A DNA stretch of 28,029 bases, from IMG/VR virus record IMGVR_UViG_3300046097_000058, positions 1 through 28,029 of that record, one strand, 5' to 3'. Under the pieces are notes generated by a model. The model was given only the letters and a program-made list of their open reading frames with translations, ran no database searches and was not told the DNA's origin. The position numbers and the translations under genes are program-made. This DNA comes from a virus. This document shows, in pieces, positions 5,356 to 28,029 of the stretch; position 1 is the stretch's first letter; the number at the start of each line of letters is the position of its first letter.

Positions 5356-5999
5356 GAGGGTTAGATCAACACGTTATCCACAGGGTAATAAGTTGTCCAC
5401 ATAGTTATCCACAGGTGGTTTATTATACAGCACCTTAAAAGAGAGATACCCCTCCCCTCTATCTTTCCCCTCTATGCTATAAATAAAACGATATACCCTC
5501 TATATATTATAATGGTATCATCGAGCGGCTGGGTTAACACTATAGGCATGGATTGCCCTCTATAACCTACGATCTAACCCTAAACAATAGCTCTCAGGGC
5601 TAACCCTCTGATATTTTAGAATCCTCCAAAGGTACTAGGACAGGGGCGAGGGGTTTCATCAAGCACCACTTCCAACTCCACTCAAAATCTTCCCTTTATG
5701 ATATTACCTCCCAATCTTATCTCAACCCTTTTGCAATAGAACAATCAATGATATTACACCTCTGGCAATAAGAGCACCTCTTAGACCCTATCCAGCACCT
5801 CACAGGTAGTCCTTGGTGGCATTATTATAGCCTAGACATAGCAGAGTACCTATTTAGGTTATAATCGCTCTGAGAAGGTTCTGCGCTCTTAGAGTTATCC
5901 ACAGGCTACGGATATTTTCCACCTGATATTTTATACACTTTGGATTCGCGCTTGACTCCTAAATTTTAAAATTAGAAATTCCTAGAAAAAGCTAGGCGT
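5356..5999. other. Putative replication origin with DnaA boxes
   Basis: About 640 bases without a gene between two convergent gene blocks. It holds three perfect TTATCCACA DnaA boxes (5374-5382, 5405-5413, 5895-5903) and a near match TTGTCCACA (5393-5401). An AT-rich stretch (about 5476-5513) could be an unwinding element. CCCTCTAT is repeated at 5455, 5468, 5496 and 5556, an iteron-like set. DnaA-box clustering next to AT-rich DNA is the standard pattern of bacterial-type origins; use by this phage is inference. No replication initiator gene is visible. Confidence 0.55.
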
Positions 6000-6045
6000 A
6001 AAAAAGCCCCCGAGGATGATAAGTCCAAAGGGGCTTTGTTGTTTC
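6000..6045. terminator. Bidirectional rho-independent terminator
   Basis: AAAGCCCC (6003-6010) pairs with GGGGCTTT (6030-6037) around a loop of 19 bases. Rightward it ends GGGGCTTTGTTGTTT; leftward it ends GGGGCTTTTTTACG, the better U-tract. It lies at the end of the leftward methyltransferase operon and would also stop transcripts entering from the origin side. Confidence 0.75.
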
Positions 6046-6133
6046 TACGGTTTACCTAGTCTTTGATTGGCTATCTCAAAATACTTCTGCTCTTTCTCAA
6101 TACCTATGAAACTTCGTCCTGTGTTAATACAAG

Positions 6134-6763
6134 CTACCCAGTAGTTCCACTTCCCATTGTGAAATCTAAGACTGTTTCTCCTTTGTTCGTATAAGTATTA
6201 ATCAAATACTCCATAAGTGGAACGGGCTTCTGTGTAGGGTGGACTGTGCCTTGTGCATTGTTAAACTCCAAGACTGTCGCTGGCATAGACTTATCAGGTG
6301 GACACTTATGAGCATCTAATCTATGACTCCCATAGTTATCTGATGTTCTTGTCCTACTCGTCTGAGGTCTTTGGTTAACCTTTGGCTTATCCTTTAGTTC
6401 TGGATTATAAGTGCATTGCTTAGAATAGAACACGCAAACGTCCTCTGTATTCCTCATAGGCTGTTTCCATGCATTCAGGTGACCAGTAGCTTGTGATTTC
6501 TTCCACACCCAATTGTACTTATACATATCTAAGTTACTTGCAATGAGGAGGCTTGTGAATGGTTGTGCTGCAGTTAGAACAATAGCCCCACTAGGTTTGA
6601 TAACCCGTCTCAGCTCATTCCACATCTTATCTAAAGGGATTACACTATCCCACTTGCAAGATGTAGTCCCGTAAGGCGGGTCACACAGCACCATATCAAT
6701 ACTTCCATCTGGAATCTGCTGCATGACTTCTAGGCAGTCTCCTTGATATGTGCTGATACTCAT
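6134..6763 (-). CDS. DNA methyltransferase, frameshifted near the C-terminus
   Basis: Site-specific DNA methyltransferase of the beta type (catalytic motif before the SAM motif): DPPYGTT at residues 28-34, HPTQKP near 176-181 and [10 protein letters not shown] at 200-209. The frame stops right after GSGTTG. A one-base shift at the GGG before the stop (6137-6139) restores [20 protein letters not shown] and then [10 protein letters not shown], ending at 6045, which matches the intact paralogue at 7499-8242 ([20 protein letters not shown]). So it is a one-base G deletion, an assembly indel or a recoding site. The start overlaps the ClpP stop by four bases. Confidence 0.85.
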
Positions 6764-7509
6764 TTAATCTTAGCTTTTACTTTAGGTTTAGGCTTCACAG
6801 TCTTAATTACTTTCTTAGCTTCTACTTCAGACTTGACTTGTTTAGCCTGCCAGAACTTCTCTCGAATCTCTAGTCTCTTCACAATCTCTTCTGAATTAAA
6901 ATGATACTCTTTGCCAATTTTAAGGTATTCAATCTCGATAGGTGTTAAGAAGCCCTCGTAGGTTTCATCCAATAATTTATTTAATTGAGAGGTACTAAAG
7001 TTCACACTGTCAGCTACCTCCCCTTGCTTCCCACCAGTACCGTAACTAGCTGAATGAATCATTAAACTCATCTCTGGCATAACAATAACATTATCAGAGC
7101 GAAGGAACAACATACCTGCTGCACTAGCAGCTTGACCACAACCAATAATTGTAACTTCAGCCTCAGTGTCTCTCAGTGCAGCTAGGATACGCATTGTAGA
7201 GTCAATCCTACCGCCCCCTGAATCAACCCATATACGCACTGAATCATCCTTGTCTGCGTTAATCAAGACCTGATATAGATCATTGTAGAAGTGCGGAGCT
7301 TTGATAGAAGTGTTCAGATGAAAGTCAATGTCCATGACTGATAACCGCTTAACATAAAGACCAAACCTAGGTTCTGCTTCTTCGTCATCATCAAAGTCAT
7401 CGGCTTTAGTCTTTCGCTTACGTCCTAAGTCCAGAGTGCTCTTAGTTGGGTTCTTGCCAAAAGCAGTCCCCAACCCCTTAGGTTGTGTCTTGAAGTTTTT
7501 ATATTGCAT
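6760..7509 (-). CDS. ClpP/SppA-like serine protease
   Basis: 249 residues of the ClpP fold: RIWVDSGGGRIDSTMRILAA (about 92-111), nucleophile S129 in GCGQAASAAGML and H152 in MSLMIHSASYG. The third catalytic residue is not at an obvious Asp; the FNSEEI segment stands where ClpP has the Asp-containing loop. The first 45 and last 45 residues are charged extensions, the tail lysine-rich. It lies between two methyltransferases, overlapping both, not beside head genes, so prohead maturation is not the evident role. A ClpX-type partner is not visible. Confidence 0.85.
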   Translation of the reverse strand: MQYKNFKTQPKGLGTAFGKNPTKSTLDLGRKRKTKADDFDDDEEAEPRFGLYVKRLSVMDIDFHLNTSIKAPHFYNDLYQVLINADKDDSVRIWVDSGGGRIDSTMRILAALRDTEAEVTIIGCGQAASAAGMLFLRSDNVIVMPEMSLMIHSASYGTGGKQGEVADSVNFSTSQLNKLLDETYEGFLTPIEIEYLKIGKEYHFNSEEIVKRLEIREKFWQAKQVKSEVEAKKVIKTVKPKPKVKAKIK

Positions 7510-8242
7510 TTATTCTCCTTTGTGCGATTTCAAAATATTTAGATTCTTTCTCTATACCGATAAAACTTCTACCTAATTTCACAGCAGCAACACCAGTAGT
7601 TCCTGAACCCATTGTGTTGTCGTGAACCACATCACCGGTGTTTGTGTAAGTCTTAATTAGGTACTCACAAAGTTCCACTGGCTTCTGTGTAGGGTGCAGA
7701 ACATTCTTATTTGGGTTAGCAAACTCAAGAATCTGCCGTGGATAGTTAGAGTATTCCAGTACCCTATCTAACTTATGAGATTCCCTAGAAGGTGTTAACT
7801 CTCCACTTAAGTATTTCCTAGGGCGACTCCACTCTTTGTCTACTCTAACCAACCCCTGAGGGTTGTAGGGCATATTTGAAAGAGAGCCATTTGCAGTGCT
7901 GCCTTTACTAAACACAGATATTGTTTCTATATCTTTTAACGGTTTAAGCTTTGCGTTTGTAAAACCAGAGGGTCTACTCTTTTTCCAGTACCAGTCGTAC
8001 TTAAACATACTTAGGTTAGACAAACGTAAACGAGATGAAAACGGCTCTTGTCCAAAAAGTACAATTGCTGCGTTAGGTTTTATAATCCTCTCGTACTCTG
8101 CCCACAAAACCTCAAAAGGAAGCATCTTATCCCATATTAAAGGTGTAGTCCCATAGGGTAAATCACAGAGAATCATATCTACAGACCCATCAGGAATACC
8201 TTTCATCAACTCAAGACAATCCCCTTGCATAAGGTTAATCAT
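7499..8242 (-). CDS. DNA methyltransferase (beta-type, intact)
   Basis: 247 residues. Catalytic motif IV appears as DLPYGTT at 27-33 (Leu replaces the usual Pro/second residue), HPTQKP follows in the C-terminal half and the SAM motif [20 protein letters not shown] closes the protein. The order, IV before I, marks the beta class (N6-adenine or N4-cytosine). It is a paralogue of the 6134 enzyme. No restriction endonuclease is adjacent, so protection of phage DNA from host restriction, or regulation, is the likely role. Target sequence cannot be read. Confidence 0.9.
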   Translation of the reverse strand: MINLMQGDCLELMKGIPDGSVDMILCDLPYGTTPLIWDKMLPFEVLWAEYERIIKPNAAIVLFGQEPFSSRLRLSNLSMFKYDWYWKKSRPSGFTNAKLKPLKDIETISVFSKGSTANGSLSNMPYNPQGLVRVDKEWSRPRKYLSGELTPSRESHKLDRVLEYSNYPRQILEFANPNKNVLHPTQKPVELCEYLIKTYTNTGDVVHDNTMGSGTTGVAAVKLGRSFIGIEKESKYFEIAQRRINAI

Positions 8243-17380: not shown

Positions 17381-17869
17381 ATGGAACTTGAAAGACTTAA
17401 CCAACTCCTGCAATACGATAACCTTACAGGCAAACTCTCTAGTAAAGAGCACTCTCGTGAGCTACACACTGACCCAGATGGTTTTATCACTATATGGGAC
17501 AGTCAAGCCAAGAAGAAGACAAAGTTCAAATCTGACAGATTGTGCTTTACATTAGGAAACAATAAAAAGTTAAGGAAGAACCAGAAGGTTTTACACAAGA
17601 ACCTTAACAACAAGGACAATAGGCTTGTTAACTTGGTGTTAATCTCTCAGAGCGTCCACAACAAGATTAAAGAAGCTTCTAAGAATCTTAGTGGAGGTAT
17701 AAAGATACTACCGCACATCAAGGATAAGTATGACTTCGTAGTGTCGTATTTTGACGACAAGTTTCACACTAAAGAGGTTTACTGTGATATCATTGCTGCA
17801 CAAAAAAGGGTGTTAGTGCTGCAGTTGAGATACGCTAAGGTACTAACACGCTACTGTTGTTTTGAATAA
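17381..17869 (+). CDS. HNH-like conserved phage protein
   Basis: 162 residues. The start (LNQLLQYDNLTGKL) parallels the 19659 HNH enzyme (LKELLNYDHETGLF), and VLHKNLNNKDNRLVNLVLIS (70-89) keeps an H72 and N80-R-L-x-N84 pattern typical of HNH endonucleases, but the second His/Asp context is changed. The C-terminal part lacks the obvious AP2 repeat. It may be an inactive or diverged endonuclease turned into a conserved phage protein; ribosome site is weak. I am moderately sure of the fold kinship only. Confidence 0.6.
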   Translation: MELERLNQLLQYDNLTGKLSSKEHSRELHTDPDGFITIWDSQAKKKTKFKSDRLCFTLGNNKKLRKNQKVLHKNLNNKDNRLVNLVLISQSVHNKIKEASKNLSGGIKILPHIKDKYDFVVSYFDDKFHTKEVYCDIIAAQKRVLVLQLRYAKVLTRYCCFE

Positions 17870-18695: not shown

Positions 18696-18770
18696 TGCGG
18701 GATAACTGTTGGTTGTCCAGTGAGGCTCATAATCTCATGTACGTGCGTTCGATTCGCACTCCCGCTTCCA
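18696..18770 (+). tRNA. tRNA with CAU anticodon (Met or Ile2)
   Basis: T-arm GTGCG-TTCGATT-CGCAC (18743-18759), anticodon loop CTCATAA (18726-18732) on a stem of five pairs including a G-U, and an encoded CCA (18768-18770). Six acceptor pairs form (GCGGGA with TCCCGC); the first pair would be U-U. The D-arm is non-standard: its stem (ACTG/CAGT) competes with the anticodon stem. It lacks the three G-C pairs of an initiator, so elongator Met or lysidine-modified Ile is likely. Confidence 0.7.
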
Positions 18771-18775
18771 TATCT

Positions 18776-18848
18776 TACTCGATAGCTCAATTGGCAGAGC
18801 ACTATCCTCCAAAGTTAGCGGTTCTAAGTTCAACTCTTAGTCGGGTAG
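18776..18848 (+). tRNA. tRNA-Trp (CCA anticodon)
   Basis: Acceptor TACTCGA/TCGGGTA, D-arm GCTC-AATTGGCA-GAGC, anticodon loop CTCCAAA with anticodon CCA, variable loop of five, T-arm CTAAG-TTCAACT-CTTAG and a G discriminator, as expected for Trp. The anticodon stem has one U-U mismatch. No CCA end is encoded, unlike the other two tRNAs. Confidence 0.85.
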
Positions 18849-18870
18849 CTAGAACACAAAAGAATATAAT

Positions 18871-19476
18871 ATGAAAATTAACTTCTCAATTAACGGTGTA
18901 AAAAAATATATCGAACCAGACTACGTTTGGTGGTCAGACCATTGGAAGAAGGTAGCCACAGTCATTACTGTTCTATTCTTAGTGCTGTTCTTAGCTTCCT
19001 GTACTAGCGGTACTTACGAGGTTGTACCACCTGCACCTACCTTCAATTGTCAAGGCAGTTACAACGGGAACTACTCTCCCCCTTCACATGAAGAGCGTAT
19101 TCGTTTACGAAACCAATCTTTAGCCCTTCGCGGTATTGAGATTGTTGCAGATGAAGGAGTGAACAATAAGAACGCTGGCGGTGGAGCACCTGATGGTGGA
19201 ATCTGGATGGGCGGCAGTTATACCTTTGAGACAGATGCTAATTGTAGTATCACAAAGGGTTCTACAATGGTGTTTTACTCTTACCCTTACGAACTGAACG
19301 GTGCAATCCAACAAGATCGTACATTCAAGTTAACATGGTCTGGTTCTGGCTCTGCTGGACGTATGGACGGTAAGGTTGAATTAGATAATACTATTTCAGG
19401 TTCGTTCTATCACCCTGCACCAGAGGATTATATCTATGGTGTGATTAGTGGTAATTTTACACCTGTTATTAAGTGA
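18871..19476 (+). CDS. Lipoprotein of unknown function between tRNA genes
   Basis: 201 residues. An unusually long basic/aromatic N-region (about 27 residues) precedes a hydrophobic core ending in the lipobox LASC (C44). The mature part has glycine-rich and beta-strand-rich sequence, with a MetGly-rich segment GGGAPDGGIWMGGSYTF. It sits between tRNA-Trp and tRNA-Thr. Might be an envelope-modifying cargo gene; no family recognised. An alternative is an inner-membrane anchor with the soluble domain outside. Confidence 0.75.
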   Translation: MKINFSINGVKKYIEPDYVWWSDHWKKVATVITVLFLVLFLASCTSGTYEVVPPAPTFNCQGSYNGNYSPPSHEERIRLRNQSLALRGIEIVADEGVNNKNAGGGAPDGGIWMGGSYTFETDANCSITKGSTMVFYSYPYELNGAIQQDRTFKLTWSGSGSAGRMDGKVELDNTISGSFYHPAPEDYIYGVISGNFTPVIK

Positions 19477-19483
19477 AGAATTA

Positions 19484-19559
19484 GCTCTAGTAACTCATCT
19501 GGTAGAGTGCCAACCTTGTAAGTTGGAAGTACGGAGTTCGAGACTTCGCTGGAGCACCA
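19484..19559 (+). tRNA. tRNA-Thr (UGU anticodon)
   Basis: Acceptor GCTCTAG/CTGGAGC (one G-U), D-arm ACTC-ATCTGGTA-GAGT, anticodon arm CCAAC-CTTGTAA-GTTGG with anticodon TGT, T-arm CGGAG-TTCGAGA-CTTCG and encoded ACCA. A complete standard cloverleaf. Confidence 0.93.
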
Positions 19560-20822: not shown

Positions 20823-21527
20823 ATGGTATATAAAATTTTAAAGCCTTTTACTAAAGGGCTATTTACTGATTTGATTGAAACTTGGGAAAACATTACAAAC
20901 TACGAAGGTAGGTATCAGATAAGTAATTTCGGGAATGTCAAGTCAATTAATCGTAGAGGCGCATCACCAGATATTCTACGAAAAACTAAATTATCTAAAA
21001 GTGGCTACCCAATGCTGAACCTTTGTATTGAAGGCAAGAAGTCTTGGTTTACCGTACATCGGTTAGTTGCAGAGCATTTTATTGTTAACCCTGAAAACAA
21101 ACCTACAGTCAACCACAAAGACGGTGTTAAAACAAACAATTGTGTTTCAAACCTTGAGTGGGCTACCTGTAAAGAACAGATGGCTCATGCCGTAGTCAAT
21201 GAGCTACTAGAAGTGCGTGGAGCGCCTAGGTATTCTCCAGAGATGAAGCGGCAACTCAAAGACGAGTATTCATCAACGAACACTTCAATTTCAGCGTTGT
21301 CCCAAAAATACGCCGTCAGCGAACGCACCATTGGTAGAATTATCAGTGGTGAGATTGAACCTAAAACAAAATTATCAAGGTCAGATGTAGTCTTAATTAT
21401 TGAACTACGAAGAGATGGTAATACTCTGAAATCAATCTCTGAAAAATTTAGTTGTGGTATTAGCCAAATTCATCGGATAACAAGAGGTGAATCCAGAAAC
21501 GTACAATATGAAAGAGAGAGTCTGTGA
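20823..21527 (+). CDS. Free-standing HNH homing endonuclease (NUMOD4-HNH-HTH)
   Basis: 234 residues: NUMOD4-like segment (IETWENITNYEGRYQISNFG, about 18-37), HNH core VHRLVAEHFIVNPENKPTVN with H98-K-D and N105/N110 in NHKDGVKTNNCVSNLEW, then two helix-turn-helix-like repeats (SISALSQKYAVSERTIGRII; LKSISEKFSCGISQIHRI). The layout matches intron-type homing endonucleases (SPO1 I-HmuI type). It sits immediately before the intron-split terL, and its stop overlaps the terL GTG (GTGA). Since the intron has no ORF, this enzyme may mobilise it in trans. Confidence 0.9.
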   Translation: MVYKILKPFTKGLFTDLIETWENITNYEGRYQISNFGNVKSINRRGASPDILRKTKLSKSGYPMLNLCIEGKKSWFTVHRLVAEHFIVNPENKPTVNHKDGVKTNNCVSNLEWATCKEQMAHAVVNELLEVRGAPRYSPEMKRQLKDEYSSTNTSISALSQKYAVSERTIGRIISGEIEPKTKLSRSDVVLIIELRRDGNTLKSISEKFSCGISQIHRITRGESRNVQYERESL

Positions 21528-23255
21528 CTGAACAAAAAGTATATGCACCTAGCAGCAAGAAGCAAGAAGCATTTTTAAATGCAACTACTTCAATAACTGT
21601 TGCAGGTGGCGCGGCTAAACCTTTCCAATAAACTGGTCGCGTAAAACCTATTTTTTCGGTGAAACCCTAACGTAAAGACGAGGGCAATACCGAGCGAAGC
21701 TCTGAAAAGAGAACGTGTAGAGACTATCGAAATGCAACAGTAATGTTGAACAAAGTAGAGTAGGCTGCAAGTGCAGTCGAAACAGTAGGCAGCGTAGTAG
21801 CTCGAAGATATAGTCCGATACTTCTGGAAACAGGAGAGTGAATTAACGAATCACACAACAAACAAGGGTTCTGGAAAAACATACACTTCCCTGTTAATCG
21901 CACTGAAGTTCATGCAACACCCAAGAGCAACAGGGGTAATCTTTCGTCGCACATCTAAGATGCTGACAAGTCCAGGCTCTATCTGGCATGAAGCTGTTGC
22001 AATGTACTCTGACATCTATCCAACAGGGCTAAAGATTCGGCACAGAGAGAATGAAATTGTGTTCCCTAACGGAGCACTTTTAAAGTTCTCCCACATGCAA
22101 CACGCCTCCAATATGTACGATCACAAAGGTGGTCAGTACAGCCTTGTCATCTTCGATGAGGCAACGGATTTTACAGAAGACATGGTGATGTATCTAACCA
22201 GTCGTATGCGTAATGCTTACGTGGACTACACACCTCAGATGTTCTTAATGACAAACCCTGACTACAGTAGCTTCCTACGTCTTTGGATACAGGATTACTA
22301 TCTGGACTCAGAGGGAATACCTATCCCAGAACGTGCAGGGCATGTACGGTACTTTGCAAGGCAAGGCTCTAGTTACCAATGGGCGAATGATAGAAAAGAA
22401 TTAGAAGCAATATACGGCAGTGGCGAAGGTGCTCCAATTACGAGCTTTTCCTTCATCGGCGCTACCTGCGAAGATAATCCTTTAATGCTCAAGAAAGACC
22501 CTAGTTACAGGGGTAAACTCTTATCTCTGAGTCCTGTAGAGGTTAAACGTCTTTACTACGGTTCTTGGTTCGCTCGTGCTGAAGCCTCTGGGCTATGGAA
22601 ACGTGAATGGTGTCCTACGGTAGCTCACCCTAATATTTTAGCTACCAAACGAGTCAGAGCCTATGATATTGCAGGGAGTTTACCGAGTGCGGCGTACCCT
22701 AACCCCGACTGGACTCGTGGTGTACTTATCTCAAAGGATAAACAAAGTATCTACACAGTTGAGGATGTTGTTTCGTTGCGAGACAGATTCCACAAGGTTG
22801 AAGAACTGATTCTTAAGACCGCTATGAGTGATGGGCAAGCCTGCACCATTGTTATTCCTTGTGACCCTAACGCTCAAGCAGGCGCATGGGCTAGAGGTAT
22901 GCAACGTAGACTAGGTGAAATGGGCTTCAATTGCAGACTGGTCAAACCACAGCAAAGTAAAGCAACGCGCTTTGCACCCTTCTCAACCATATCTCAGGCA
23001 GGATTTGTACAGGTGGTAGATGCAGAATGGTACAACGACTTCTGCACGGAGCTTGAAAACTTTGAAGAGAATAATCGGAATCAGAAGGACGATATGGTAG
23101 ATGCTGTATCAGACGCGATAGTTATCCTAAACAAACAAGCCGTCCTCCCTTCCTTCACCCTCCCAGACCTCTCCCAATCATCAGGCTTTGGCTTCCAGCC
23201 AATCTCCCTGCCTGACAACCTAACGACTCCCTTGCAACAAGGTGAGTTTCTTTAA
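21524..23255 (+). CDS. terL: Terminase large subunit, split by a group I intron
   Basis: Exon 1 is 21524-21616 (GTG start) and exon 2 is 21867-23255; joined they give 493 residues. Walker A GGAAGSGKT (28-36) is divided by the intron between A31 and G32. Walker B is VIFDEATDF, motif III lies at LMTNP, and the nuclease acids appear in AYDIAGSL, IPCDPNA and DDMVDAVSDA. It is the ATP-driven motor and nuclease that packages DNA at the portal. Unspliced mRNA stops four codons into the intron (KPFQ-stop), so splicing is essential. GAGAGAG just before GTG serves as ribosome site, with coupling to the HNH stop. Confidence 0.93.
21617..21866 (+). ncRNA. Group I self-splicing intron in terL
   Basis: 250 nt. 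P1: exon CGCGGCT (21610-21616) pairs with GGTCGCG (21635-21641), with the required U-G pair at the 5' splice site. P10: AACT (21631-21634) pairs with exon 2 GGTT (21867-21870). Core: GGCAATACCGAGCGAAGC (21683-21700), GTGTAGAGACTATCG (21715-21729) and AAGATATAGTCC (21805-21816), giving P7 GACTAT/ATAGTC. P9-like hairpin CTTCTG-GAAA-CAGGAG (21821-21836). The last intron base is G. No ORF inside. Confidence 0.93.
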
Positions 23256-23274: not shown

Positions 23275-24744
23275 ATGCAAAGAACAACAAGAAGTGTAAA
23301 AAAGTCCTCCAGTACTTTAGACACCCCAGAGCCGTTTAAGTTCGGAGAAATGGGTATCAACGGTCAACGTATCTTTGCAGGGATACCAGACATTGAACTG
23401 AAAAAGGAATTGAACTTTCCAACAAACTTGAAGACCTATAAGCAAATGATGTTGCATCCAGCAATCAACGCTTCAATCAGTCTCTACAAGTCCATGCTAA
23501 CCAAGGCAACCTTTCGTGTTCAACCCGTCAAGAACCCCACAGCAAAAGAAAAGAAACAAGCACTACTCATTGAGCAAATGCTCGGTGACATGGAAATCCC
23601 ACTAGAGGATGTAATTGCTTCAAGTTTGACTTCACTTGATTTTGGTTTTGCCCCTGTTGAGAAGGTGTTCCGTCTGCGTACAAAAGAGAACGGAAGTATG
23701 TATGACGACGGCTTGATTGGTATCAAGAAACTAGCTCTGCGTAATCAAGAAAGTATTGACTCTTTTGTGTTCGACGCAGAAGGTAATGATGTAGTAGGTT
23801 TAAAACAAAACCTTGCTAACCTCAATGACCCGTTCGGGCGTTATTCAGGACGTACAAGTACCGTTGTGACCATGCCTCGTAGTAAGTTTATGAACTTCAC
23901 CGTAGGGCATGACAAGACAAACCCTTATGGTGTTTCTCCTTTACGTAATGTTTACCTTCCGTGGAAGTATTTGCAAGCGATTGAAGAACTTGAAGCTTCG
24001 GGTGTGGCTAAGGACTTACAAGGTGTTCCGTTGCTGACCTTGCCAGCGAGTTATATGTCTTCAGATGCATCCCCTGAACAAAAGATTGCCCTCGATGGTT
24101 TCAAGAATATTCTCAGGAATCTCCAACAGAATTCACAGGCAGGTGTTCTCTTACCCAGTGATGTAGACCCTGAAACAAAGTCTTCACTTTTTAAATTAGA
24201 ACTTCTTTCCACAATCGGTAAGAAAAGCTTCGATACGAAAGACATCAAAGAGTATTACCGTGCAATGATATTTATCGGTCTAGCTGCTGATATCTTGTTG
24301 ATGGGTAATACACAGACAGGTTCTTTTGCTCTCGGTGCAATTAAGAACAGCTTGACAGGTACTCAAGTTGAAGCGTACTTAAAAGATATTATCAAGGTTC
24401 TCAATAACGACTTGGTTCGCCATATCTACGAACTAAACGGTTGGGATGTAACCCGTAGGGCTTCTATTGATTACGAAGGCTTCGAGGATATTGACGCTGA
24501 CAGTTATTCAAAATTTGTACAACGTATTGCCTCCGTAGGTGCTTTACCAATCACCCTTGATGTTATCAATGATATTCTTTCTAAGATGGGCTTAGATAGC
24601 CTTCCAGAAGGTACAGACCTTGGTAGTGTTCTACCAGAGAAGACTTCTCGCTCAGGTGACGGTATGAAGACCGCAGGTGAAGGTACAGCCACAGATCCAA
24701 CAGGGAAATCAGGCTCTGAAACCAACTCAGACAATGCATCTTAA
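23275..24744 (+). CDS. Portal protein
   Basis: 489 residues directly after terL. The C-terminal half resembles Mu gp29/DUF935-type portals (GSFALGAIKNSLTGTQVEAY ... LNNDLVRHIYELNGWD), preceded by the LPWKYLQAIEEL helix and LLPSDVD loop. The last about 40 residues are low-complexity Ser/Gly/Thr. It would form the dodecameric DNA gate and bind TerL. Ribosome site is weak (AACGGCGAACTATAA). Confidence 0.85.
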   Translation: MQRTTRSVKKSSSTLDTPEPFKFGEMGINGQRIFAGIPDIELKKELNFPTNLKTYKQMMLHPAINASISLYKSMLTKATFRVQPVKNPTAKEKKQALLIEQMLGDMEIPLEDVIASSLTSLDFGFAPVEKVFRLRTKENGSMYDDGLIGIKKLALRNQESIDSFVFDAEGNDVVGLKQNLANLNDPFGRYSGRTSTVVTMPRSKFMNFTVGHDKTNPYGVSPLRNVYLPWKYLQAIEELEASGVAKDLQGVPLLTLPASYMSSDASPEQKIALDGFKNILRNLQQNSQAGVLLPSDVDPETKSSLFKLELLSTIGKKSFDTKDIKEYYRAMIFIGLAADILLMGNTQTGSFALGAIKNSLTGTQVEAYLKDIIKVLNNDLVRHIYELNGWDVTRRASIDYEGFEDIDADSYSKFVQRIASVGALPITLDVINDILSKMGLDSLPEGTDLGSVLPEKTSRSGDGMKTAGEGTATDPTGKSGSETNSDNAS

Positions 24745-24759
24745 AAGAAAGACTCTCTA

Positions 24760-25266
24760 ATGACATGGACAGCTATGAAAACTCTCCCTTCATTAGAGGG
24801 GAAATCCAGAGAACTCAGAGAGCTATTTGCAGAAGTAGCTAACTCTGCTTTATCTGAGGGACGCACGGGGGATGAGGCTATCTTTAAAGGTCTAGCCGTA
24901 GTTAAGCAAAAAGAACAGGTACAAGTGAAGAAATTCACCAAACCTGCCATACCTGCACATCTTCGCGCTTTATTAGACCTTAAAGGTATCCCACAAGCCA
25001 CTAGGCTTGCTCAGGAAGAGCTAGAAGATGCTGCGGCAAGCCTAGGTAGCCAAGAGCCTCAACAAGGCATTACAAGTGCTGTATTCAACGCTAAAGGGCA
25101 ATTGGTTCTTAAGTTCGGTGACGGCACATCCATCACGACTAATCCAGCACCAGTCACGGTTGTTGAGCATTCAGTAGTTGTCAAGGAAGTAAGTAGTAAT
25201 ACAGCACCATCAACCCCTGCAACTTCAGAAGACAGCCTTATGTATAACTTGGTATTAACGGACTAA
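24760..25266 (+). CDS. Portal-linked structural or assembly protein
   Basis: 168 residues. Helical N-terminal part (SLEGKSRELRELFAEVANSA, then SEGRTGDEAIFKGLAVVKQK) resembles the small ChaB-like fold in spirit, then a beta-rich tail (VFNAKGQLVLKFGDGTSITT) and a Thr/Ser/Pro stretch. No membrane span. Its stop overlaps the next ATG. Exact role unknown; head or head-tail fibre part is plausible from position. Confidence 0.65.
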   Translation: MTWTAMKTLPSLEGKSRELRELFAEVANSALSEGRTGDEAIFKGLAVVKQKEQVQVKKFTKPAIPAHLRALLDLKGIPQATRLAQEELEDAAASLGSQEPQQGITSAVFNAKGQLVLKFGDGTSITTNPAPVTVVEHSVVVKEVSSNTAPSTPATSEDSLMYNLVLTD

Positions 25267-25913
25267 TGGCACAAATTACACTTACCCCAAAGACAGCAAA
25301 GTACGGTGTACTTAACGGTTTACCGCTCACGGATGTAACTACCATATGTCCAGCTATTAATCCAGTGTACTATGATGCATCAGTAGGCACATTATCCCCT
25401 GCTGTAACCACAGGTATCTACCTGATAGTTAAAGTTACCCTTCAGAACGCCGTGGGTGCTACTGTCCGTACCTTGCGTATCGTCAAACAGGATGGAACAT
25501 TACTGTTGCAGTTTCCAGCTACAGCACAACCAGCTTTACCCTTAGAAACGACAACAGTTTACTCCTCTCGTGTCATTGTAACTAACCCGTCTGACTGGGT
25601 GAATGTTAAGTTGCAAGTTAGTTCAGGTACAGCAGGCGATACAGTAATTATAAAGGAAGCAACATTAGTGTTTGCATTTGCGGAATTATGCAACATCACA
25701 GATGAGTCCTTAGTAAAGAGAAATATCACTAACGTCTACTTTATAACTATGCAACCTGTACAGGAATCAGTACTAGGTAAAGTAGGTTCGGTAAGCGATA
25801 CAACCTTTTTAACTGTCCCTGTAAATGGTCTGTCCACTGGTTTTAGGTGGGATACTAACTCTGGGATGACACTGTACTCATGGGATGGCTCATCAATAGG
25901 TTTAGGGGTTTAA
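25266..25913 (+). CDS. Virion protein, beta-rich
   Basis: 215 residues, MAQITLTPKTAKYGVLNGLP, dominated by beta strands (GIYLIVKVTLQNAVGATVRT; NVKLQVSSGTAGDTVIIKEA). No cysteine-rich or catalytic signature. Sits between the portal-linked gene and the large fibre-like gene, so decoration or fibre base function is plausible. Overlaps the previous stop by one base. Confidence 0.6.
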   Translation: MAQITLTPKTAKYGVLNGLPLTDVTTICPAINPVYYDASVGTLSPAVTTGIYLIVKVTLQNAVGATVRTLRIVKQDGTLLLQFPATAQPALPLETTTVYSSRVIVTNPSDWVNVKLQVSSGTAGDTVIIKEATLVFAFAELCNITDESLVKRNITNVYFITMQPVQESVLGKVGSVSDTTFLTVPVNGLSTGFRWDTNSGMTLYSWDGSSIGLGV

Positions 25914-25914
25914 T

Positions 25915-28029
25915 ATGGCAGCAGCAGTATATAGCACAGATTTAAGCACAGTAGCGACTGCCGATGAAGCTGTTGGTTGGGTCTCACTAACAGGTACAGA
26001 TGGGGACGGTAAAGCATATAACGCACAATCTGTACCAGCCCACCAAAGTGCAGGATACCCTAGTATCCAAGGTAGCTACTCAGTAGCACAAGAATGTGTA
26101 GCCAGTAATGCTGTTGGGTCGTTGGCATACCCTATTGGTGGCCTACCCATACCTATCGACTTGGGCGGCGGTATAACTGTACCTACTGATGGTGGTGTGT
26201 TTGTTTGGCATAGTTTTAGCTCTGCAGTTGCTATGGGGACATACGCACAAGGTGGACAAAGAATTGCAATGGGTTCTGGGTTAGACAATTTTAAAGTGTG
26301 GCATGTGGGTGGTAAGGATGTTGAGGCTAAGTTATACGGAGGTTTCCTTAATCATGTAGCTAACCCAACTATTACCGCTGACCTGACCGCTGGCACACCT
26401 TCCTCTACTATCAATTACATTGGTAGTGCTGTTTATTCGGTACAAGGTATTCTAACTGGTAGACCGCATCAATGTGATGTGATTCGGTATGGAAGAGGGT
26501 CATCAATATTTGAACTAGGCGACGGAATTTCAGGGTATAGCACCCTAGAGGGATTTGCTACTGCAAATGATTCACAAGCTAATCGTTGGGGATTGATACA
26601 GAAGCTAAGAGGCTCATACCTATATAAAGGTAATTGGAAGTTTGGTACTGCTACCAATAGGGTGCATTTTGTAGATTCAGACAAAGTAGTATTAGTCGAT
26701 TGGACACCCAAAGTCACTGCAAACTTCAACACAATTGAAGTAACTAATACTGCCACAACAATTACTCTAGATAGATTTACATTTACCAACTTAGAGCCAG
26801 CAACAACAGCCTCAAGAGCTAGATGGGTAAATACCAATAATGCTGTAATTAGTTTAAACGATTGTATCTTTAACGACTTATCTACATTTTTGTTTGGGTC
26901 TAATACAACTGTATCTATTGCAGCATTTAATAGATGCAAAAAAGTAACACAAAATGGTGCAACAATTAAAGATGCACTGTTCTACAAGTCAGATGCTATA
27001 TCAGCATTAGCTTCTAATAATCCAGCATTGATAACTGGAGCAATCTTTACAAGTAGTGGTGTCGGTCATGCGATGGAAATTACCACAGCAGGTTCTTACG
27101 ACTGGAAAAATACAGCGATTGGTTATGCGTCTACAAGTGGTAGCACAGGTAATGAAATCATATACAACAACAGTGGTGGCAATGTCATTATCGTTCACCA
27201 AGGCGGTACTCGTGTTACTGTGCGTAATGGAGTAGGGGCAACAACAACACTCAAAGATGCAAACCCTGCCACCGTTAATTTAGGGATTGCTGCGGGTTGG
27301 GGTGGTCTGTCTACTGGTGCGGTAACTGGAACTGGGACGTGCAATGGACATCTTGGTGTACTAATCGGAGCATTGGCAGTTACGATTGCAGTACCCCCAC
27401 CATACATCAATTACGGAGTCGGTTCAGCACAGGCTTCAGCAGCTCAGACGGCATTCTTCGCATCTATAGCTGATATAAACTCTCGCACTGGAGGAACTGT
27501 TATTGGCCCTGCCGCGTTGGAGATTGGAGGAATGACACTAGGGCGAGGTTTGTACGATATTGTCGGCGCGACAACTATGACGACACCATTTACGTTGGAT
27601 GGCGGTGGAGACCCAGACTCTGTATTTATTATTCGATGTGGTGCTGCGCTTTCAGTGACAGCATCCATCGCTATGAGGATGATAAATGGTGCTCAGGCTA
27701 AGAATGTTTACTGGCGAGTGGTAGGAGCAGTCGCATTGGGTGCAGCAGCTTATATAGAGGGTAATTTTTTAGGACATTCTACATTCGGTTGTGGTGCTGA
27801 AGCTAATGTCAAGGGTAGGATATTGATGGCTGACACAGCTGGAACTATCACTTTTGGTGCTACAACTTTAGAAAATCCAGACCCCGGAGTTACCCTAACT
27901 ATAGTTCCAAATGTTAGTTTAGTGGGTGCTGAAATTCGTGTCTATGACCTTGATGTTGCTGGTCAACAGTACGGCACTGAGCTATCTGGTGCTGAATCAC
28001 ATACTAGTTTTAATTATGTTTATGAAGGC
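25915..28029 (+). CDS. Large virion protein with DUF3494 ice-binding-like domain, C-terminus outside window
   Basis: 705 codons visible, open at the window end. N-terminal part (1-450) is beta-strand rich and repetitive, like a beta-helix fibre (TTITLDRFTFTN, NAVISLNDCIFND). Residues about 455-652 match the DUF3494 fold: NLGIAAGWGGLSTG opening, GGMTLGRGLYDIVGA (539-553), GDPDSVFII (565-573) and INGAQAKNVYW (590-600), then VKGRILMADTAGTITFGATT. A further domain begins after about 655. DUF3494 proteins include ice-binding adhesins; here it is fused inside a phage structural protein, so it may serve as a surface adhesin. ATG lies one base after the previous stop. Confidence 0.8.
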   Translation, partial: MAAAVYSTDLSTVATADEAVGWVSLTGTDGDGKAYNAQSVPAHQSAGYPSIQGSYSVAQECVASNAVGSLAYPIGGLPIPIDLGGGITVPTDGGVFVWHSFSSAVAMGTYAQGGQRIAMGSGLDNFKVWHVGGKDVEAKLYGGFLNHVANPTITADLTAGTPSSTINYIGSAVYSVQGILTGRPHQCDVIRYGRGSSIFELGDGISGYSTLEGFATANDSQANRWGLIQKLRGSYLYKGNWKFGTATNRVHFVDSDKVVLVDWTPKVTANFNTIEVTNTATTITLDRFTFTNLEPATTASRARWVNTNNAVISLNDCIFNDLSTFLFGSNTTVSIAAFNRCKKVTQNGATIKDALFYKSDAISALASNNPALITGAIFTSSGVGHAMEITTAGSYDWKNTAIGYASTSGSTGNEIIYNNSGGNVIIVHQGGTRVTVRNGVGATTTLKDANPATVNLGIAAGWGGLSTGAVTGTGTCNGHLGVLIGALAVTIAVPPPYINYGVGSAQASAAQTAFFASIADINSRTGGTVIGPAALEIGGMTLGRGLYDIVGATTMTTPFTLDGGGDPDSVFIIRCGAALSVTASIAMRMINGAQAKNVYWRVVGAVALGAAAYIEGNFLGHSTFGCGAEANVKGRILMADTAGTITFGATTLENPDPGVTLTIVPNVSLVGAEIRVYDLDVAGQQYGTELSGAESHTSFNYVYEG

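Follow-up and report, generated by a model that had tools for sequence, protein, structure and literature searches.

A DUF3494 domain apparently inserted into a phage structural-type protein with links to the Syn5 gp54 module

The final open reading frame (ORF) of IMG/VR record IMGVR_UViG_3300046097_000058 contains a complete DUF3494 domain in what appears, from sequence comparison, to be a new architecture for this known domain: it is inserted in a phage structural-type protein that belongs to a module resembling that of Syn5 gp54. Our best reading, which we consider probable, is that it codes for a tailed-phage structural protein, most likely part of an appendage on the capsid exterior or at a vertex, comparable to the Syn5 horn, into which a DUF3494 domain from a Verrucomicrobia-like secreted protein has been inserted. 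The window that we analysed spans the entire record, which is linear and 28,029 bases long; the ORF begins with an ATG and stays open for 705 codons up to the contig end, and its stop codon therefore lies outside the window. Table 1 lists the features discussed here.

Table 1. Positions of the DUF3494-bearing ORF, its parts and the genes upstream of it.
Feature	Position in window	Strand	Remarks
Terminase large subunit	21912..23255	+	phrog_979 E=1.4e-137; Pfam Terminase_6C/6N
Portal protein	23275..24744	+	phrog_113 E=5.3e-67; Pfam Portal_Mu E=2.4e-22
168-aa ORF, no assigned function	24760..25266	+	Pfam and PHROG without convincing match
215-aa ORF	25266..25913	+	no PHROG match; sub-threshold Pfam DUF7451 match
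DUF3494-bearing virion-type protein (candidate)	25915..28029	+	705 aa, still open at contig end
N-module, residues 1-450	25915..27264	+	beta-rich ~1-200; right-handed beta-helix ~225-450
DUF3494 / Ice_binding domain, residues 455-655	27277..27879	+	PF11999; phage-relative profile; AlphaFold2 and Foldseek
B-face strand 1 GAVTGT, residues 468-473	27316..27333	+	mapped through AnpIBP
B-face strand 2 GATTMT, residues 551-556	27565..27582	+	mapped through AnpIBP
B-face strand 3 AALSVT, residues 577-582	27643..27660	+	mapped through AnpIBP
B-face strand 4 GAVALG, residues 604-609	27724..27741	+	mapped through AnpIBP
B-face strand 5 STFGCG, residues 622-627	27778..27795	+	mapped through AnpIBP
B-face strand 6 GTITFG, residues 643-648	27841..27858	+	mapped through AnpIBP
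Start of small C-terminal domain	27880..28029	+	common to relatives and Syn5 gp54; cut by contig end

An earlier note, made from the sequence alone, had proposed a DUF3494 pattern at residues ~455-652, quoting the strings GGMTLGRGLYDI, GDPDSVFI and INGAQAKNVYW, all of which are present in the translation. The profile search that it suggested bears this out: PF11999 (Ice_binding) in Pfam matches the ORF with E = 1.4e-25 (90.7 bits, cut-off 28.7), and a profile made from phage relatives spans the full domain, residues 455-655. Every PDB sequence match below 0.001 is to an ice-binding or antifreeze protein of the DUF3494 kind, the best being 5uyt (E = 3e-23) and 6bg8 (1.1e-19). The structure prediction agrees. 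The AlphaFold2 model of the domain, built with 52 aligned viral sequences (mean pLDDT 86), consists of stacked strands plus a helix at 59-77, which is the triangular beta-solenoid with a long flanking helix that characterizes the family, and in a Foldseek search of the PDB all 31 matches below E = 0.001 were DUF3494 ice-binding proteins (E down to 5e-12; TM 0.74-0.84 against the crystal structures). Profile, PDB sequences and predicted fold thus firmly support the identity of the domain. It shares with SfIBP_1 (6BG8), 5UYT, FfIBP (4NU2) and AnpIBP (7BWX) a full-length domain, the same predicted solenoid-plus-helix fold and a B-face of small residues, but unlike them it sits in a phage structural-type protein that has no signal-like N-terminus.

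The remainder of the protein belongs to a widespread phage module. Residues 1-450, which we call the N-module, had no match in Pfam, PHROG or PDB sequences. When viral contigs were scanned with the N-module and its relatives, 28 loci emerged: the contig that we call L004 (IMGVR_UViG_3300023242_000874) and 27 further ones. For the helix part of the N-module model, where pLDDT is mostly 85-97, VIA-align returned phage tailspikes, polysaccharide lyases, adhesins and other beta-helix proteins with Z of 13-15, a shared fold that gives no function by itself. The earlier description of a large repetitive structural protein is accordingly loose in the word "repetitive", as outside the DUF3494 domain we find a beta-rich part and a beta-helix with no sequence repeat. 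The L004 protein (742 aa, C-terminus complete) has the same three-part architecture and is 52% identical to the window protein over 664 aa. Among the N-module loci, only these two have DUF3494 after the N-module; in relatives with a readable C-terminus the N-module is joined directly to the C-terminal domain, and for this reason DUF3494 looks inserted between two old parts. The C-termini of several relatives match the end of L004 (L074 7e-7, L082 1.8e-5, L089 2.5e-5).

The genes upstream of the N-module vary. Those of L004 differ from the window's and are collagen-like; proteins with collagen-like G-x-x repeats flank its DUF3494 protein on both sides (3-587 and 5787-8135). The upstream genes of the other N-module relatives also differ from the window's, and two loci, L070 and L072, unlike the window, have conserved genes of non-structural appearance there (clusters c58 and c161). 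Searches of the N-module relatives for the window's portal, using the protein and phrog_113 and run without a positive control, found none, which suggests that the phages carrying the N-module differ.

The C-terminal domain provides the link to Syn5. The profile of this family matches L004 residues 636-741 with E=3.4e-5 and, partially, window residues 648-703 with E=0.004, as just the initial ~50 residues of the domain lie within the window. The L074 domain matches gp54 of Synechococcus phage Syn5 at 45% over ~108 aa (E=2e-13) and also matches the counterpart in S-TIP28, gp57. Both of these Voetvirus cyanophage proteins are annotated "structural protein", and their C-terminal domains are homologous to ours, whereas Syn5 and S-TIP28 have no PF11999 match, and the N-terminal portions of the two proteins mostly show no sequence relationship to the window family. 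The neighbourhood is shared as well: the L004 gene is followed by a full-length homologue of Syn5 gp53 (32%, E=2.6e-62) and, further on, by a homologue of gp55, and families resembling gp53 and gp55 flank the module in other relatives, including Virus Rctr197k. Gp179 of that virus (KX853510) has, as in the window family, an N-module (~30% identity) and the C-terminal domain, with a gp53-like gene before it and a gp55-like gene after it, but unlike the window protein it has no DUF3494 domain. These neighbours are known from L004 and the relatives, since the downstream side of the window lies past the contig end. The gp53-like proteins (L004 3306-4865 and relatives) and the DUF3494-bearing or gp54-like proteins have a similar C-terminal ending, roughly D-R-x-Y-x-N-P, which suggests a common attachment part.

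Raytcheva and colleagues (J Virol 2014) reportedly assigned gp53 and gp54 to the Syn5 horn. Syn5 bears this horn-like structure at the vertex opposite its tail (PMC10575957). Upstream of the N-module gene, L076 has a major capsid gene of the SU10 type (E=1.6e-70) and an adaptor (2.5e-10), and L094 has a portal and possible head genes, the matches in the latter being weak. The virion setting claimed in the earlier note is therefore well supported by the family context, namely the module of gp53-, gp54- and gp55-like proteins, the capsid genes near relatives and the absence of a secretion signal, and a virion location of the DUF3494 protein is likely.

The source of the domain itself was probably a bacterium resembling Verrucomicrobia. 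A tree built from 154 DUF3494 domains places the window and L004 beside secreted proteins with tandem DUF3494 from two metagenome-assembled genomes (MAGs), one of Prosthecobacter and one of the PVC group, with support 97/98, although the window is a long branch and its exact place is therefore unsure. These two proteins, L101 and L102, are the closest cellular relatives (39-42% when compared with the window and 56-59% with L004); each has a signal-like N-terminus and two DUF3494 copies, L101 has SdrD_B domains, and no phage modules were seen in either. Apart from them, a phage-only clade holds about 46-48 further viral domains. The starred branches force at least three label changes among the viral rows, and a single phage origin for all viral DUF3494 is not supported by this tree, which shows two apparently separate phage acquisitions, one in the window/L004 lineage and one in the phage-only clade. 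The data thus point to a repeated recruitment of DUF3494 into what look like phage structural-module proteins. In the phage-only clade, the major capsid gene frequently lies close to the DUF3494 gene: phrog_1357 was found in 18 of the 29 records tested, and in 17 loci the gap measures 246-3455 bases and in some cases contains further genes. The viral loci L002, L003 and L006-L065, 62 in all, make up a large phage clade that is often near capsid genes; L049, L051 and L054 have two copies of the domain, and some of the proteins in this clade exceed 1,400 aa. A tblastn search of named phages with DUF3494 domains and proteins gave no significant match. Two proteins of the giant virus Hyperionvirus are named DUF3494 (BFVD A0A3G5A745 and A0A3G5AEI1), with weak fold matches.

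To locate the B-face we used AnpIBP, for which this face has been published residue by residue (PMC7277481). An independent alignment recovered the published face exactly (QGAA SAGD TTVY SSTG ALAQ SATD), which supports the mapping. All 24 outward residues of the window's B-face are G/A/S/T (10 S/T, of which 8 are T), compared with 15% in its other strands, and none is bulky, charged or aromatic; L004 likewise has 24/24 in the independent alignment and 23/24 in an earlier one. The two proteins are 62% identical on the B-face versus 41% domain-wide. Such a face does not predict activity, since bacterial DUF3494 domains average 0.85 G/A/S/T and a sequence from Shewanella frigidimarina has 0.5. 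The positions of the key AnpIBP residues S153 and T156 are occupied by G and A in strand 4 of the window domain. As for the flat threonine-rich face that had been expected, the small-residue face is there, but with 8 Thr among 24 outward residues it has no regular Thr-x-Thr or T-A/G-x-T/N ladder. Such ladders are a feature of just some ice-binding proteins, and AnpIBP, although active, has none either. From its composition, the window's B-face would permit ice binding without proving it.

Several other readings of the ORF deserve consideration. Bacteria commonly carry DUF3494 (our genome scan for bacterial relatives gave 455 loci), so a bacterial sequence wrongly binned as viral might be suspected; the probability of this is negligible, and we rejected it, because terminase and portal genes lie 1-4 kb upstream on the same contig, and the ORF itself holds an N-module found in many viral contigs. 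Viral PF11999 genes in Arctic vOTUs have been proposed to be auxiliary metabolic genes for host cryoprotection (PMC11515562), so the product of the ORF could instead be an ice-binding protein secreted during infection to protect the host. The viral members L007, L008 and L012 do have signal-like N-termini, and these may be different. When hydrophobic N-termini were sought with a rough measure (threshold 2.0; no signal-peptide predictor), 5 of 64 viral DUF3494 proteins were signal-like versus 75 of 100 bacterial ones, the viral count becoming 8/64 under the lenient rule applied to the bacteria. Neither the window protein (hydrophobicity maximum 0.92) nor that of L004 (0.39) is signal-like, and the cryoprotectant reading published for members of the same Pfam family is thus disfavoured, at least for this ORF, which we read as encoding a structural-module protein. 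The family of the protein is tied to structural genes and other phage ice-binding protein genes are often near capsid genes; with the module context and the N-terminus both against it, we dropped the auxiliary metabolic reading as very unlikely here.

Our preferred reading remains the structural one. The links to Syn5 gp53, gp54 and gp55, together with the lack of a signal-like N-terminus, make a virion appendage the most likely place for the domain. In that case, the beta-solenoid of a Verrucomicrobia-like secreted protein would have been inserted after an ancestral stem, the beta-helix, and before the small C-terminal domain; the protein would be made in the cytosol, its phage-specific parts would drive assembly onto the particle, and the presumably flat B-face of the solenoid would be displayed outward as an adhesive surface.

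The earlier note had offered attachment to ice, surfaces or host glycans, or simple reuse of a beta-solenoid fold, as possible roles. What such a surface on a virion appendage might bind can be read in two ways. The B-face could adsorb to ice. Particles would then stick to, or accumulate at, ice surfaces or brine channels close to hosts that live in ice, or would gain protection during freezing and thawing. The complete domain with its predicted fold, the small and uncharged outward residues with their 10 S/T and the higher identity between the window and L004 on the B-face are in its favour; the generality of the G/A/S/T face in the family and the replacement of the two key AnpIBP residues count against it, and we regard ice binding by the virion as possible but doubtful. 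The solenoid may otherwise have lost ice binding and serve as a receptor-binding or surface-adhesion module for a host polysaccharide, a cell-surface protein or particles. Phages have exchanged modules at this position, as they typically do with parts for host recognition, the beta-helix of the N-module is similar to those of tailspikes and adhesins, and DUF3494 in bacterial proteins frequently occurs together with domains linked to adhesion (PMC9957290), but the mapped B-face has no charged or aromatic residues suited to glycans. We find this reading plausible, though we hold it tentatively. As a ligand of the B-face, ice itself receives a minority share of the probability; a host-surface or particle ligand is the alternative. 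The most far-reaching proposal, that phages recruited the DUF3494 solenoid at least twice as an exposed part of the virion and that here it forms an ice-adhesive capsid or horn appendage anchoring particles to ice, we consider rather unlikely.

If the particle does bind ice, this would bear on the ecology of viruses in sea ice, snow and permafrost, and we know of no earlier virus whose particle does so. If it does not, the family would be a natural set of DUF3494 domains from which to learn what makes this fold bind ice. The family also supplies a functional context for the poorly understood genes of Syn5-type appendages. In the openly accessible literature that we searched, we found no paper describing DUF3494 as a virion part.

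The earlier note was right to place the ORF next to portal genes: terminase and portal lie upstream of it, with two small ORFs between the portal and the DUF3494 ORF. The 215-aa ORF, for which no relative was found among the small genes of related loci, is probably structural, judged by its position. Upstream of the packaging genes there are three tRNA genes (Met, Trp and Thr; 18696-19559) and two ORFs for HNH endonucleases, one at 17381-17869 (phrog_99, 7e-9) and one at 20823-21527, directly upstream of the terminase gene (phrog_59, 1.6e-50). An ORF of 201 aa at 18871-19476 weakly matches a family of Rz-like spanins (E=0.0016).
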